Below are positions 21,108 to 26,941 of a stretch of 37,448 nucleotides of DNA, piece after piece (within the stretch, counting starts at the first letter, position 1; every line of letters starts with the position of its first letter). A program made the position numbers and the translations under genes. The notes beneath the pieces were generated by a model. That model made no database searches and had not been told where the DNA came from. It saw only the letters and a list, made by a program, of their open reading frames with translations. The stretch is from Gemmatimonadota bacterium (GTDB lineage: Bacteria; Gemmatimonadota; Gemmatimonadetes; Gemmatimonadales; Gemmatimonadaceae). The stretch covers positions 1-37,448 of the forward strand of contig CANHNQ010000019.1 of NCBI GenBank assembly GCA_947462095.1, written 5' to 3'.

Positions 21108-22139
21108 ATGTTCACCCTGCACCTTACCAACGGTGATTCGGCCGCCAGCGCGCTCGCGCGCTCGGGCCTCCCCGGCGATATCGTCTCCTGGCGCGACGTG
21201 CTGCACGACGGGCCGGTGCCCACCGATGACGACCTCGGCCTGTTCCATCGTGCGCGCGCCGAGTTTCTGGCCAGCCGAGGCTGGTCGACGGTGCAGGAGG
21301 TGGTGACGGACTTCGAGCAGCGAGATGCGCGGCTGGAGGATGTGGGTGCAGAGGATGAGGTCGTACTCTGGTTCGAGCCGGATCTGTACGACCAACTGCA
21401 GCTCATCCAGATCCTCGCGCGGCTGGGGCGGCGGGCCGAGCAGGAGCGCCCGCGGATCACCATCGCACCGGCCGACTGCTATCTGGGCATCATGCGGCCG
21501 GAAATGTTTGCACCGATGTACGCCGCGCGCCGCGCGATCACGTCGGAAGATCTGGAGCATGGCCGCGTGGCCTGGCGCGCATTCACGGCGGATACGCCCA
21601 CCGATCTGCTGGCGGTGACCGACCGGCTCGACCGCGACGTGAATGCGCGCACGTACTCGGTGGACGATGACGTCCGGTTGCCGCACTTGGTGGCCGCGTT
21701 GCGACGTCAGCTCGAGGAGTACGTCGATATCGATTCCGGATTGTCGCGCAGTGAGCGGCAGCTGTGTGAAGCGCTGTCCCCCGGGGCGCTCACCATGGCC
21801 AAGCTGTTCGCGGCGCATCAGGGCACGGAATCGTGGGTGTGGCTCGGCAACTGGAGCTTCGCGTGGTACGCGGAACGCCTCAGTGACTGCGCGCAGCCGA
21901 TTGTGTTGTATACCAACGGTTCCCCGGTCATCGCGCCGCCACGCGATCCCGATGACCGTGCATTCTGGGAGCGGACCGTGCAGTTGACGCCCTTCGGGCA
22001 GGACGTGGTACGGGCGCGTGCCGATGCGGTGCAGGCCAACGGCATCGATCGCTACATCGGCGGCACGCATTGCACGACGATGCGGTATTGGCGCTGGGAT
22101 GCACGCACGCAGCGCACCGAACCGTTTCCGCGCCGCTAA
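21108..22139 (+). CDS. DUF1835-domain protein
   Basis: 343 residues. The opening MFTLHLTNGDSAASALARSG and GDIVSWRDVLHDGPVP are the hallmark of DUF1835. The C-terminal part, from about residue 215, reads SRSERQLCEAL and ends LTPFGQDVVRARADAV with GIDRYIGGTHC, as in the DUF1835/DUF3658 two-domain proteins. Function is unknown, and I see no signal peptide, membrane segment or catalytic motif. It starts the plus-strand run and its TAA overlaps the ATG of the decarboxylase gene by one base (TAATG), which predicts coupled translation. GATACC six bases before the ATG may be a weak leaderless-type -10, though it does not fit TANNNT. Confidence 0.85.
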   Translation: MFTLHLTNGDSAASALARSGLPGDIVSWRDVLHDGPVPTDDDLGLFHRARAEFLASRGWSTVQEVVTDFEQRDARLEDVGAEDEVVLWFEPDLYDQLQLIQILARLGRRAEQERPRITIAPADCYLGIMRPEMFAPMYAARRAITSEDLEHGRVAWRAFTADTPTDLLAVTDRLDRDVNARTYSVDDDVRLPHLVAALRRQLEEYVDIDSGLSRSERQLCEALSPGALTMAKLFAAHQGTESWVWLGNWSFAWYAERLSDCAQPIVLYTNGSPVIAPPRDPDDRAFWERTVQLTPFGQDVVRARADAVQANGIDRYIGGTHCTTMRYWRWDARTQRTEPFPRR

Positions 22140-23614
22140 TGGATGCGCACGCGGACCAGGATGCCGAGCTGCTGGCGATGCTCGAAGCGGATGCGACCCT
22201 CGAGGCGGCACGCCCGATTCTCGAACTGGCGGCCGGCTATTTCGCCGACACCCGGCGCGGCGAGGGGCCGGTATCCACGTGGCACAGCGCGCAGGTGATC
22301 GCCGATCGCCTCGCCGGTCCGATGCCGCGTGCTCCCCGCGCGCTCCCCGATGTGGCGCGGCGCCTGTCATCGCTCCTGCTGGACGATATCAATCGGCTGG
22401 CGCATCCGATGTACATCGGCCATCAGGTCTCCGCGCCGCTGCCGGCGGCGGTATGGACCGACGCGTTGATCAGCGCGTGCAATCAGTCGCAGGCGGTGCG
22501 CGAGATGTCGCCGTCGTTCACGCCGCTGGAGCATCAGGTGATCGCGTGGATGACCGATCTGGTGGGATGGGACGAGCGGGCCGGTGGGACGATGACGTCC
22601 GGTGGGACCGAAGCCACGTTCACCGCGTTGCTGGCGGCGCGCAGCCGCGCCGTGCCCGATGTGTGGACCAACGGGTTGGGGGCGAACCCGCCGGTGGTGG
22701 TGTGCGGCGAACACACGCACTACGCGGTATCGCGCGCCGCCGGTGAGATGGGGCTCGGCCGGTCACGCGTGATCGTGGTGCCCTCCCGCGCGCTGCGCAT
22801 GGACCCCGACGCGTTGCGCGCACGTCTCGAGACGCTGCGCGACAGCGGCACGCGCGTGATGGCGGTGGTCGCCACGGCGGGGTGCACCGCGACCGGCACG
22901 TTCGACGACCTCGAGGCGATCGCCGATCTGTGCGATACGTTCGCCGACGACCACGGCCCGCTGTGGCTGCACGTCGATGCGGCGCACGGCGGCGCGGCGA
23001 TGCTGTCGCCGCGTCATCGGCACCGGGTGCAGGGACTCGTGCGTGCGCGCTCGGTGGCGTGGGACCCGCACAAGACGCTGTTGTTGCCGCTGTCGGCGGG
23101 GATGGTGCTGTTGCGCGATCAGGACGATCTCACCCGTGCCTTCACGCAGGAGGCGCCGTATCTCTTCGGTGCCGGCACCGACGCGCAGGTCTGGGATATG
23201 GGTCCGCGCTCGTTTCAGTGCTCGCGCCGGGCCGATGTGCTGAAGCTGTGGGTGGCGATCGAACGCTATGGCGCCGATCATCTCGCGCGCCTGTATGACC
23301 GGCTCTGCCGCATGGCGCAGACGTTGCACGGTCTGCTGAGTGGGCGCGCCGATTTCGTGCCGTTGCACGAGCCGATGTCGAACATTCTCTGCTTCGCGTG
23401 GACGCCCGCCGGTGTCGCCGACGAGGCCCGCGACGCGCTCACGGATGCGCTGCGCGAGCGGTACAACCGCTCGGGGCGGGGGTGGATCACCGCCACCACG
23501 CTGAACGGCCGTCGCGTGCTGCGCGTGACGGTGATGAATGCGCGCACCGACGCATCGCACCTTGCCCGCCTGGTAGACGGGCTGGTGGCCGAAGCGGCGC
23601 TGATGCTGCGCTGA
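22139..23614 (+). CDS. PLP-dependent group II decarboxylase
   Basis: 491 residues. Fold type I PLP enzyme of the aromatic-amino-acid/glutamate/diaminobutyrate decarboxylase family. It has HPMYIGHQVSAPLPAAVWTD, the TSGGTEATFTALLAAR phosphate-binding block, CGEHTHYAV (PLP-stacking His), HVDAAHGGA and the Schiff-base lysine K312 in WDPHKTLLLP. The amino-acid substrate cannot be read; from the family it could be aspartate, glutamate, diaminobutyrate or an aromatic residue. The ATG at 22139 shares its A with the stop of the DUF1835 gene. The last codons and the stop lie inside the 11-bp tandem repeat at 23597-23684, so the exact C-terminus depends on that repeat. Confidence 0.9.
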   Translation: MDAHADQDAELLAMLEADATLEAARPILELAAGYFADTRRGEGPVSTWHSAQVIADRLAGPMPRAPRALPDVARRLSSLLLDDINRLAHPMYIGHQVSAPLPAAVWTDALISACNQSQAVREMSPSFTPLEHQVIAWMTDLVGWDERAGGTMTSGGTEATFTALLAARSRAVPDVWTNGLGANPPVVVCGEHTHYAVSRAAGEMGLGRSRVIVVPSRALRMDPDALRARLETLRDSGTRVMAVVATAGCTATGTFDDLEAIADLCDTFADDHGPLWLHVDAAHGGAAMLSPRHRHRVQGLVRARSVAWDPHKTLLLPLSAGMVLLRDQDDLTRAFTQEAPYLFGAGTDAQVWDMGPRSFQCSRRADVLKLWVAIERYGADHLARLYDRLCRMAQTLHGLLSGRADFVPLHEPMSNILCFAWTPAGVADEARDALTDALRERYNRSGRGWITATTLNGRRVLRVTVMNARTDASHLARLVDGLVAEAALMLR

Positions 23615-23684
23615 TGCTGCGCTGATCCGGCGCTGATCCGGCGCTGAGACGGCGCTGAGACGGCGCTGATCCGGCGCTGAGACG
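23597..23684. repeat. Eight tandem copies of an 11-bp unit
   Basis: Eight units of exactly 11 bp begin GCGCTGA and end in one of three four-base variants: TGCT (A), TCCG (B) or GACG (C). The order is A-A-B-B-C-C-B-C. The first unit and part of the second encode the end of the upstream decarboxylase, and TGA in unit 2 is its stop. Because 11 is not a multiple of 3, the TGA in each unit puts stops in all three frames within 33 bp. The period is near one DNA turn, so all copies face the same side. It is not a CRISPR: there are no spacers. Confidence 0.9.
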
Positions 23685-23718
23685 ATGCGCGCTCGCCGGC
23701 GCGCCTTCCCCGATAGCC

Positions 23719-23748
23719 GTGACAACGCCGCGACCACCGGTGTATATA
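23719..23748 (+). promoter_or_regulatory. Promoter candidate for the malic enzyme gene
   Basis: GTGACA (one mismatch to TTGACA) lies 18 bases before TATATA (23743-23748). Transcription from here would give a leader of about 65 bases containing the GGAG site at 23812. The repeat array ends 34 bp upstream. Confidence 0.4.
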
Positions 23749-23811
23749 CCGAGTACTTCCGCGTCCCACCGCGCGCGCGGAGCCCAAGTGCAGCGCACAG
23801 ATCCGTTCTCT

Positions 23812-23815
23812 GGAG
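23812..23815 (+). promoter_or_regulatory. Ribosome-binding site fixing the malic enzyme GTG start
   Basis: GGAG lies 5 bases before the GTG at 23821. The frame is open 34 codons further up to another GTG at 23719, but that one has no ribosome site and falls in the predicted promoter. Confidence 0.7.
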
Positions 23816-23820
23816 AAGCC

Positions 23821-25458
23821 GTGACGACCCCGCTCCATCCCAAACGTGGTGCCGATCTTCTGAATGACCCGGTCCTGAACAAGGGCACCGCGTTCACTGA
23901 CGCCGAGCGCGATGCCTTCGGATTGCGCGGGCTGCTGCCGCCACGGGTGATGTCGCAGGACGAGCAGCTCGCCCGCATTCTGCCGGGCGTGCGTTCGAAG
24001 CCGTCACCGCTGGAGCAGTACGCGTATCTGGTGGCGCTGCACGATCGCAACGTCACGCTCTTCTATCGGCTGGTGATGAATCACCTCGAGGAGCTGATGC
24101 CGGTGCTGTACACGCCCACGGTGGGGCAGGCGTGCGAGGAGTTCGGCCGCATTTTCCGGCGCAGTCGCGGCATGTACATCACGGCCGCCGACAAGGGGCA
24201 CGTGGCGGCGGTGCTCGCCAACTGGCCCCAGGATGATATTCGCATGATCGTCGTCACCGACGGGGAGCGCATTCTCGGCCTGGGCGATCTTGGGGCCAAC
24301 GGCATGGGCATCCCGATCGGCAAGCTCACGCTGTACACGGCGTGCGCCGGCGTGTCGCCCAATCAGTGTCTGCCGATCACGATCGACGTGGGCACCAACA
24401 ATACGGCGCTGCGTGAGAGTCATTCCTACGTGGGGCTGCGTCAGCCGCGGTTGCGCGGCGCCGAGTACGACGAACTGCTGGACGAATTCGTCGAGGCGGT
24501 GCAGGCGCGGTTTCCGATGGCCTGTCTGCAGTTCGAAGACTTCGGCAATCACAACGCGTTTTCGCTGCTGGAACGGTGGCGCGACCGGATCTGTACGTTC
24601 AACGACGACATTCAGGGTACGGCGTCGGTGGCGCTGGCCGGCCTGTTCTCGGCCGCGCGCATCAACGGGACACCGCTGCGCGACATGCGCCTGCTGTTTC
24701 TCGGCGCCGGCGAAGCCGGTATCGGGATCGGCGATCTCGTGGTCGAGGCGCTGTGCGCCGAAGGGATGTCACTCGACGAGGCACGCCGGCACTGCTGGTT
24801 CGTGGACTCGAAGGGGCTGGTGGAGCACTCGCGCACCGATCTCGCCGAACACAAGCAGCGCTTCGCGCACGAGCATGCGCCGGTGAGCACGTTGCTCGAT
24901 GCGGTGACCGCGCTCAAGCCGCACGCCATCATCGGCGTGTCGGGTACGCCGAACACGTTCACCAAGGACGTGCTCGAGGCCATGGCGAAGGAGCACGCGC
25001 GCCCCATCGTGCTGGCGCTGTCCAATCCCACGTCGAAGGCCGAGTGCACGGCGCTGCAGGCGTACGCGGGCACGGATGGTCGGGCCATTTTCGCCAGCGG
25101 CAGCCCGTTCGCGCCGGTCACGTACAAGGGGAAGACCCACGTGCCGGGGCAGGGCAATAATGCGTACATCTTCCCCGGCGTCGGACTCGGCGTCACCGTG
25201 AGCGCGTCGTCACGCGTCACGGAATCCATGTTCGCTGCGGCGGCGCGCACGCTCGCCGCGCTCGTGACCGAAGACGATCTGGCGATGGGACGGATCTATC
25301 CGAGCCTGTCACGGATCCGCGAAGTGTCCCGGGCCATCGCGATCGAGGTGGCCACGTTGGCCTTCGACAGCGGCTTGGCGCGGGTGGAGCGGCCGGCCGA
25401 CATCGCGGCCGCCGTGACGGACGCGATGTTCGAGCCGCACTACGTGTCGCTCGTGTAA
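23821..25458 (+). CDS. maeA: NAD-dependent malic enzyme
   Basis: 545 residues, the usual length. It oxidatively decarboxylates L-malate to pyruvate with NAD (cytoplasm). Motifs in order are LMPVLYTPTVG with Y97, GDLGANGMGIPIGKL with catalytic K168, QFEDFGNHNAF, the metal-binding FNDDIQGTASV, the nucleotide-binding FLGAGEAGIGI, and ALSNPTSKAECT with GQGNNAYIFPGVGLG near the end. The long form and FNDDIQGTA place it with the MaeA/eukaryotic-like group; NAD rather than NADP preference is inferred from family. The GTG start has a good ribosome site. It stands between two PLP decarboxylase genes. Confidence 0.93.
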   Translation: MTTPLHPKRGADLLNDPVLNKGTAFTDAERDAFGLRGLLPPRVMSQDEQLARILPGVRSKPSPLEQYAYLVALHDRNVTLFYRLVMNHLEELMPVLYTPTVGQACEEFGRIFRRSRGMYITAADKGHVAAVLANWPQDDIRMIVVTDGERILGLGDLGANGMGIPIGKLTLYTACAGVSPNQCLPITIDVGTNNTALRESHSYVGLRQPRLRGAEYDELLDEFVEAVQARFPMACLQFEDFGNHNAFSLLERWRDRICTFNDDIQGTASVALAGLFSAARINGTPLRDMRLLFLGAGEAGIGIGDLVVEALCAEGMSLDEARRHCWFVDSKGLVEHSRTDLAEHKQRFAHEHAPVSTLLDAVTALKPHAIIGVSGTPNTFTKDVLEAMAKEHARPIVLALSNPTSKAECTALQAYAGTDGRAIFASGSPFAPVTYKGKTHVPGQGNNAYIFPGVGLGVTVSASSRVTESMFAAAARTLAALVTEDDLAMGRIYPSLSRIREVSRAIAIEVATLAFDSGLARVERPADIAAAVTDAMFEPHYVSLV

Positions 25459-25501: not shown

Positions 25502-26941
25502 GTGCGTATCCTCGATCTCGAATTCAGCGCGCACGACATGCGCGACATGGCCGATCAGGTCGTCGCGCGCTGCGTGGAGCACATCACGACGCTGCCGCTG
25601 CAGCCGCTGTACGGCGTGCACGACGCGGACGCGCTGTGCACGCGTATGCGGGAGCCGTCGCCGGCGTCCGGTACGCCGCTGCCGGCGTTGCTCGACGATC
25701 TCTTCACGACCTACATCCCGCAATCATTCAACACGCCGGCGCCGGGCTATCTCGCGTACATCCCCGGCGGCGGTCTGTTTCCGGCGGCGCTGGCGGATTT
25801 CATCGCCGATACCACCAATCGCTACACGGGCATCTGGCAGGCCGCACCGGCGCTCGTGCAGCTGGAAGCGAATGCGCTGGAGTGGCTGCGCGAGTGGATG
25901 GGATTCCCGGTTGGCACGCGTGGCGTGTTCACCACCGGCGGCTCCATGGCCACGTTCAATGCGGTGCTGTGCGCGCGTGAGCAATATCTGGGCGTCGATA
26001 TCCGTCGCGGCGTGCTGTACACGTCGGATCAGGCGCATCATTGCGTGCTCAAGTCGGCGAAGCTGGCCGGCATCATGCCCGATCGCGTACGCTCGATTCC
26101 GTGTGATGCGCAGTTCCATCTGCCGGTCGACGCGCTGCGCGCCGCGATCGCCCAGGATCGTCGCGACGGGTTGCTGCCGTTCATGGTGGTGTCGAACGCC
26201 GGCACCACGAACACGGGTGCCGTGGATCCGCTCAGCGCCATCGCCGACCTGTGTGCCGACGAACAGCTGTGGCATCACGTGGACGGCGCGTATGGCGCGT
26301 TCTTCCAGCTGTGTCGGGACACGCAGCCCGTCTTACGCGGCATCGAACGCGCGGATTCCCTCACACTCGATCCGCATAAGGGGATGTTCATGCCGTACGG
26401 CACGGGCGCGCTGCTGGTGCGCGATGGGGCCGCGCTGCGGGCAGCGCACGGTGCGACGGCCGACTATCTCCCCGACATGCCGAGCGCGTCGGAGTTCTAC
26501 GATCCGAGTCAGCATGGCCCCGATCTGTCGCGCGGCTTTCCGGGGCTGCGCATGTGGCTCACGATCAAGCTGTACGGCGCCGACGCGTTCCGGGCGGCCA
26601 TCGACGAGAAGCGCGCGCTCGCGCTCGACGCGGCGGCGCGGGTCGCGCAGTTACCGCATGTCGTGATGGACGCGCCGCCGGAACTGTCGTTGTTTCCGTT
26701 CCACCTCACGTGGCCGGGTGCCACGCTGGCGCAGGAAGACGCGGCCACCCGCGACTTGATGGCGGCCACGTCACAGCGTGGACGCGTGATGATCAGCGGC
26801 GCCGTCGCCGGCGGGCGCTATGTGGGGCGGGTGTGCGTGCTGAGCTTCCGGACGCATGCGGCGCAGATCGACGATCTCGTGGAGGACATGGCGGCCGCGA
26901 TCGCTGAGGTGGTCGCCACGCACCGGGCGTTATCGGCGTAG
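25502..26941 (+). CDS. Second PLP-dependent group II decarboxylase
   Basis: 479 residues with a GTG start. It is the same superfamily as the 22139-23614 product but clearly a different subfamily: PAPGYLAYIPGGGLFPAALAD, then VFTTGGSMATFNAVLCAR, SDQAHHCVLKSA, HVDGAYGAF and the PLP lysine K293 in LDPHKGMFMPYGTG. The FxxxLADFIADxTNRYTG region and DPHKGMFxPYGTG resemble aromatic-L-amino-acid or tyrosine decarboxylase-like proteins; the substrate is unproven. The stretch GGGAGTG puts the purine-rich element directly against the start, so initiation may be weak. It is 43 bp after malic enzyme and 111 bp before the OPT transporter gene. Confidence 0.9.
   Translation: MRILDLEFSAHDMRDMADQVVARCVEHITTLPLQPLYGVHDADALCTRMREPSPASGTPLPALLDDLFTTYIPQSFNTPAPGYLAYIPGGGLFPAALADFIADTTNRYTGIWQAAPALVQLEANALEWLREWMGFPVGTRGVFTTGGSMATFNAVLCAREQYLGVDIRRGVLYTSDQAHHCVLKSAKLAGIMPDRVRSIPCDAQFHLPVDALRAAIAQDRRDGLLPFMVVSNAGTTNTGAVDPLSAIADLCADEQLWHHVDGAYGAFFQLCRDTQPVLRGIERADSLTLDPHKGMFMPYGTGALLVRDGAALRAAHGATADYLPDMPSASEFYDPSQHGPDLSRGFPGLRMWLTIKLYGADAFRAAIDEKRALALDAAARVAQLPHVVMDAPPELSLFPFHLTWPGATLAQEDAATRDLMAATSQRGRVMISGAVAGGRYVGRVCVLSFRTHAAQIDDLVEDMAAAIAEVVATHRALSA

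Follow-up and report, generated by a model that had tools for sequence, protein, structure and literature searches.

The window, a 37,448-nucleotide stretch of Gemmatimonadota DNA that was analysed as a whole, contains an array of eight 11-bp direct repeats that begins inside the 3' end of a pyridoxal-dependent decarboxylase gene. The array is most likely recent and harmless, and one of a kind that recurs just behind gene ends in this group of bacteria. We read it as a young minisatellite that arose by replication slippage at the decarboxylase 3' end and has been tolerated since its copies are translationally silent, and assign to this reading a probability of about 70%; slippage as the mechanism and the near-neutrality of the array are both what we infer. 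As a single array it is ordinary; the recurrent class to which it belongs is more useful, as it marks places of minisatellite birth in a poorly studied phylum. The features at the decarboxylase end are the following:

22142-23614, + strand: pyridoxal-dependent decarboxylase gene (PF00282, E 2.4e-64), from the open reading frame; an ATG start is assumed, and the frame can start at 22070.
23597-23684, + strand: tandem array, 8 x 11 bp, core GCGCTGA, unit order A-A-B-B-C-C-B-C, read directly from the sequence and by TRF.
23612-23614, + strand: decarboxylase stop codon TGA, within unit 2, from the open reading frame and the unit positions.
23678-23684, + strand: last TGAGACG of the array, a motif also present 3' of the stop in the close relatives L004 and L005; likely the right-hand ancestral edge.

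The 88 bp of the array consist, in order, of GCGCTGATGCT twice, GCGCTGATCCG twice, GCGCTGAGACG twice, GCGCTGATCCG and GCGCTGAGACG, so that direct reading of the units bears out the pairwise duplication described in the earlier note. The first seven bases of every unit are GCGCTGA, invariant across all eight, and the four-base unit ends are TGCT, TGCT, TCCG, TCCG, GACG, GACG, TCCG and GACG; the units thus differ in the 4-bp spacer only, as they would also under selection on the 7-bp core. TRF reported the array with a period of 11 (23595-23680, 7.8 copies, score 116) and with a period of 33 (23595-23684, score 131), the runner-up array in the window scoring 63. As the top score was 82 among 200 windows of the same length simulated with an order-3 Markov model, and none of them reached 116, the array is real, and its head-to-tail units of a length between about 10 and 100 bp, present in at least three copies and beyond chance, are those of a minisatellite. 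An 800-kb sample of this genome held 10 arrays with a TRF score of at least 116 (12.5 per Mb), and the corresponding densities were 15.0, 12.5 and 2.5 per Mb in the genomes G029, G024 and G020. Within a 1.92-Mb sample, 69 of the 104 arrays with a score of at least 60 lay in called genes and had unit lengths that are multiples of three, and a single one of the 104 (score 61, in G020) spanned a called stop codon. The strength of the array is therefore ordinary, and its seat uncommon.

This seat determines what a change in copy number does to the protein. The array starts within the decarboxylase gene and its second unit provides the stop, as had been proposed: the TGA occupies 23612-23614 and the open reading frame ends at 23614. 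When the two flanks were joined with 2-8 units, the number of residues before the stop remained identical and only residues among the last few varied; the protein was extended when they were joined with 0 or 1 unit. With the stop locked in unit 2, copy changes past this unit are therefore translationally silent. The plus strand of the array carries stops in all three frames (23612, 23645 and 23678; 23601, 23634 and 23667; 23623 and 23656), and its minus strand carries none in any frame. This distribution is a matter of arithmetic, since it results from any stop-holding unit whose length is not divisible by three.

The relatives searched were 29 other genomes of the genus Gemmatimonas, one per species, 27 of which have an orthologue of the decarboxylase. 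The array was present at none of these 27 congeneric gene ends and at neither of two family-level ends, and species-level evidence of this kind suggests that it changes quickly. The last residues of the decarboxylase vary throughout the genus: the protein ends in AALILHTH or AALILHAH in the close relatives L004, L007 and L005, and in AALMLR, two residues shorter, in the window. The gene end of L004 and L005, which reads GCGCTGATC-TGCACxCGCAC TGA TGC...TTCATGAGACG, contains counterparts of the left edge of the array, of TGATGC and of the right edge; both preserve TGATGC around the stop, and, counted from the first stop base, a TGAGACG begins at a distance of 19 bases. Edge counterparts were found in these two only, L003, L006, L007 and L008 having a TAG stop and other flanks. 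Single units match the relatives' ends at 7-9 of 11 positions, and control windows reach at least 9/11 in 4-5% and at least 8/11 in about 30% of cases; as such matches are weak, the argument for ancestry is based on position. A 12-bp block just 3' of the same stop is present in one copy in L006 and in two copies in L008. Small arrays (TRF score of at least 40) occur between -20 and +120 of this stop in 5 of the 29 relatives, compared with a frequency of about 7% at 861 control gene ends, an excess with a Fisher p of 0.048 for relatives that are not independent of each other. In genome G010 (L029, 2963-3022), a 15-bp array of unrelated sequence with a TRF score of 106 starts at the orthologous decarboxylase stop.

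According to the model that we favour, the array would have been produced at the decarboxylase 3' end by replication slippage, with copy-choice between short direct repeats. The seed sites would be the gene's own end (TGATC..., with the stop in TGATGC) and the TGAGACG at the 19-base distance given above, so that the array would have grown in this lineage between TGA-bearing sites still seen, array-free, in two close relatives, presumably displacing the unconserved last residues (HTH or HAH before the stop in L004 and L005, R here). Extra copies would be tolerated with the stop locked in unit 2 and with little constraint on the intergenic part; more generally, copies behind a stop would be free of cost, and copies within genes or at starts would be removed.

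A survey of arrays of any sequence drew on five genomes, sampled over 2.32 Mb, in which there were 744 intergenic intervals and 86 arrays with a TRF score of at least 40; the expectation was random placement within the same interval. Array edges 0-20 bp behind a stop numbered 36 versus 18.3 expected, a value attained in none of 600 permutations; array edges at starts were not enriched (8 versus 9.3), nor were arrays including the stop itself (edges from -12 to +3; 16 versus 14.0). With a gene model for each genome, the p values for the enrichment at 0-20 bp were 0.020, 0.003, 0.107, 0.060 and 0.007, so that it depends on the pooling of genomes. A 500-kb sample of a Gemmatirosa plasmid gave 17 edges versus 9.0 expected at 0-10 bp behind stops (p 0.004) and 25 versus 16.4 at 0-20 bp (p 0.014), with no enrichment at starts (7 versus 6.7 at 0-10 bp, 13 versus 12.2 at 0-20 bp) or for edges from -12 to +20 (26 versus 25.3). 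S. meliloti pSymB, taken as a control for the stop enrichment, contained just 5 intergenic arrays in 400 kb, too few for a comparison. Arrays with a TRF score of at least 40 numbered 1002 per Mb on the Gemmatirosa plasmid (L306-L315), 180-395 in the Gemmatimonas samples and 108 on pSymB. Slippage combined with relaxed constraint is the simplest account of the stop-proximal enrichment, of the lineage-specific array and of the neutral mix of periods described below.

The GCGCTGA core recurs in the genus. Three GCGCTGA at 11-bp spacing, with at most two mismatches, were matched in seven of the 30 genus genomes besides this one, and the backward pattern at the same spacing had no match in the 30. 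When the spacing was left free between 1 and 24 bp, matches were found in 19 of the 30 genomes, 99 in total versus 18 for the backward pattern, which correspond to 49 distinct GCGCTGA arrays, mostly of period 8-18 and a few irregular as counted by eye. Forty-six of these arrays (all but C264, C347 and C507 of G023) were located relative to genes called by a simple codon-usage script, not by annotation: five lie within genes and 41, including that of the window, are non-coding. Without the window's own, 40 remain; in 21 of these, a same-strand gene terminates at the TGA contained in the first exact GCGCTGA. The stop precedes the array by 3 bp in one and by 31 bp in another, and 17 arrays are located elsewhere. 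Some of the stop-seated arrays (L223, L246) have a degenerate unit ahead of the stop. Since only 33 of all 192 non-coding GCGCTGA sites in 2.32 Mb are gene stops, the 21/40 represents a clear excess (p 3.8e-7; 20/39 and p 1.2e-6 when one homologous pair is reduced). A further stop-seated array, of period 12, is located on the Gemmatirosa plasmid (L306). Further GCGCTGA 11-mers at gene ends, for which the earlier note had suggested a search of the genome, thus occur in congeners, often at stop codons, and none was found within this genome.

The excess at stops is particular to the GCGCTGA set, as the survey gave no enrichment of stop-including arrays and a threefold repeat of the 7-mer ending at the stop occurred at just one gene end in 906; thrice-repeated 7-mers at +7, +14 and +20 were all more frequent than this (6/986, 11/938 and 13/906). 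Counted by eye, arrays whose period is not a multiple of three numbered 32 for GCGCTGA, 5 for CCGCTGA, 8 for CGCGTGA (six of them strictly regular) and 6 for GCGCTGC, corresponding to 3.1, 0.83, 0.61 (about 0.45 with the six) and 0.33 per 1000 non-coding sites. Nine of the 32 GCGCTGA arrays are of a 16-bp type found in G014 and G023, and 23 are left without them; the core was picked because of the window's array, which is only one of the 32. Among the k-mers shared by 22 perfect non-coding arrays in the 2.32 Mb, GCGCTGA was not one of the leaders. Among 150 genomes drawn from the phylum, 22 had matches, and 17 of these belong to the same family.

Neutral slippage accounts neither for the preference for GCGCTGA as a core nor for the large number of its arrays that include the stop. 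It is conceivable, although unlikely, that the Gemmatimonadaceae possess a stop-anchored class of arrays, in which a process recognizing or stalling at GCGC-TGA ends repeatedly duplicates the stop and the next few bases. If this were true, translation stops would be birth sites of minisatellites, and GCGCTGA would not be neutral but would seed them specifically. The class offers many natural replicates in which the first unit is recognizable as a stop codon, and it allows slippage, relaxed constraint and sequence-specific seeding to be distinguished; in addition, strains of uncultured Gemmatimonas could be typed at loci of this kind.

Selection for a stop-codon backup, with arrays kept because their repeated TGA catches readthrough or frameshifted ribosomes, is improbable. 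The stops in all three plus-strand frames stand as observed, and the 21 of 40 non-coding arrays seated at stops speak for such a role, as do the 106 sense versus 52 antisense stop triplets in 59 gene-end arrays of any sequence, compared with 730 versus 660 in the 40 bp behind stops; this excess would fit a backup, although the stop that seeded each array may account for some of it. The safety function that had been attached to the frame cycling, however, finds no support in the periods. Those of the 21 stop-seated arrays are 14 (eight arrays), 15 (six), 11 (three), 12 (two), 10 and 13, so that one-frame periods, i.e. multiples of three, are not avoided (8/21, and 23 of the 59 gene-end arrays). 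With 8/21 multiples of three and 3/21 of period 11, neither frame cycling nor helical phasing seems to be selected. Furthermore, stop-holding units would not be rare by chance (17% of the window's 11-mers, read as circles), and the 27 congeneric orthologues do without the array.

That the array forms a hairpin or terminator at the 3' end of the decarboxylase mRNA is very doubtful. The stop-seated arrays, including that of the window, do fold better than shuffled sequences (mean z -1.77, n=22), and a comparison with 149 random gene ends is likewise in their favour (p 0.0004), but 16 arrays away from stops (a control set without L249, L238 and L265) fold just as well (mean z -2.16, p 0.49), and the opposite strand gave -1.85; a hairpin role for the stop-seated arrays was rejected on the likeness of these controls. 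For the window array alone, RNA and DNA folding each gave an unexceptional z of -1.32, and RNA folding with other borders gave -2.05. No intrinsic terminator (GC hairpin plus U-tract) was found between 23500 and 23900, and an Rfam search of 23400-23950 returned no match.

The array had also been interpreted as a row of identical sites, phased to one DNA turn and placed 35 bp before the malic enzyme promoter, for cooperative protein binding. PhoB/OmpR-type boxes have such a 7+4 bp direct-repeat geometry, and helix-phased sites of this type regulating the malic enzyme would agree with the invariant 7-bp core, the 4-bp spacer, the 11-bp period and a position just upstream of a conserved TATATA block. 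The features concerned are:

23743-23748, + strand: TATATA in the block GGTGTATATACCGAGTACTT, probable promoter from the alignment, not reported by the sigma-70 scan.
23821-25458, + strand: malic enzyme gene (PF00390 and PF03949); a GTG start after GGAG is assumed, and the start region is conserved in relatives.

The distance of 35 bp would lead to a GTGACA at 23719, picked out by eye; conservation among the relatives centres instead on the surroundings of the TATATA at 23743-23748. A scan of 23500-23900 for sigma-70-like promoters found none, and the GGTGTATATACCGAGTACTT block is common to L005 and G029, with an altered form in others. The phasing itself is approximate only: at 10.5 bp per turn, successive units drift by 17 degrees, and by 120 over seven steps. 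Relatives that keep the promoter block have no array, and its spacing is not kept, the distance from stop to TATA being 131 in the window, 51, 57, 60 and 63 in four relatives and 459 in L003 with its longer interval; that from TATA to GTG is 78 in the window versus 121-124 in five relatives. The heptamer is not enriched (319 seen versus 329 expected on both strands of 800 kb of this genome, a sample outside the window), exact pairs of it at 11 bp are absent from the same sample, and the three-unit pattern had one match only, with three mismatches, elsewhere in the 3.64-Mb assembly. Related arrays have periods of 8-18, and period 11 occurs in only three of the 21 stop-seated ones. Neither of the two marks of a PhoB/OmpR-type operator, conservation of the site upstream of the gene in relatives and further genomic copies forming a regulon, was found. 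With the array absent in same-order relatives, the spacing not kept, a 17-degree rotation per unit, an unenriched heptamer and no pairs at 11 bp, the cooperative-binding claim finds no support, and a phased operator is hardly probable.

Weakest of all is an assembly artefact: the genome is an 82% complete draft in 215 contigs, but the unit order A-A-B-B-C-C-B-C is non-uniform, both flanks align with relatives and the 88 bp are shorter than a usual short read, which makes this origin extremely improbable.

Compared with five relatives, the malic-enzyme leader (23750-23820) lacks 43-46 nt; the absent segment adjoins CCGCGTC, which is present twice in relatives, and was likely lost by a short-homology deletion near the array. 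A second, distant pyridoxal-dependent decarboxylase paralogue (25502-26941; PF00282, E 4.8e-61) lies directly behind the malic enzyme gene.

With the array read as a young, slippage-born minisatellite, several published systems can be compared. ETR-F (VNTR3239) of Mycobacterium tuberculosis, located between rnc and fpg1, has a strain-variable copy number that correlates with expression (PMC2734929). Like ETR-F, the window array is a short intergenic tandem array confined to few species and upstream of another gene; unlike it, the window array begins within the upstream gene. Direct repeats of the heptamer TAACTGA are described in Beggiatoaceae, Cyanobacteria and Bacteroidetes, with 13 sets overlapping the stop codon of the upstream gene (PMC4679880). 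Shared features are a seven-base, stop-bearing and recurrent core, stops in three frames and the overlap with a stop codon; however, the TAACTGA unit is a fixed heptamer, located for the most part directly before start codons in the principal genome of that study (PMC4679880), whereas in Gemmatimonas the GCGCTGA core is spaced 8-18 bp, spacers differ between arrays and the frequent seat is the stop. TAACTGA is not the repeated unit of the window array, with its GCGCTGA core and 11-bp units. In archaeal Borg elements, arrays within genes have units that are multiples of three, and those between genes mostly do not (PMC9879509); these too are recently formed and independently arising, but they are A-biased, near perfect and carried on extrachromosomal elements (PMC9879509). 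The 'ambush' hypothesis regards off-frame stops as insurance (PMC3700767, PMC5909447), and shares with the present case the stops in other frames, although the test of periods does not favour it for the GCGCTGA arrays. The titles and abstract openings listed in searches of open-licence PMC papers revealed no stop-seated arrays in Gemmatimonas; we judge the window array to belong to a known kind, the minisatellites, and the stop-anchored GCGCTGA class to be a variant not found in print by these searches.

Two related types of array were also observed. Arrays with a 16-bp period, consisting of GCGCTRA and nine variable bases, occur in G029, G014 and G023, several of them at contig ends (L108, 9287-9425 and 4253-4293; L240, L270, L271 and L272). 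Arrays with a 14-bp period, a GGCGCTGR core and a variable spacer are dispersed over many sites of G112, with 37 matches, and are present at a single site in the Gemmatirosa sample (L313, about 40.6 kb, reverse strand); with their kept core and changing spacer, they are not the product of plain slippage.
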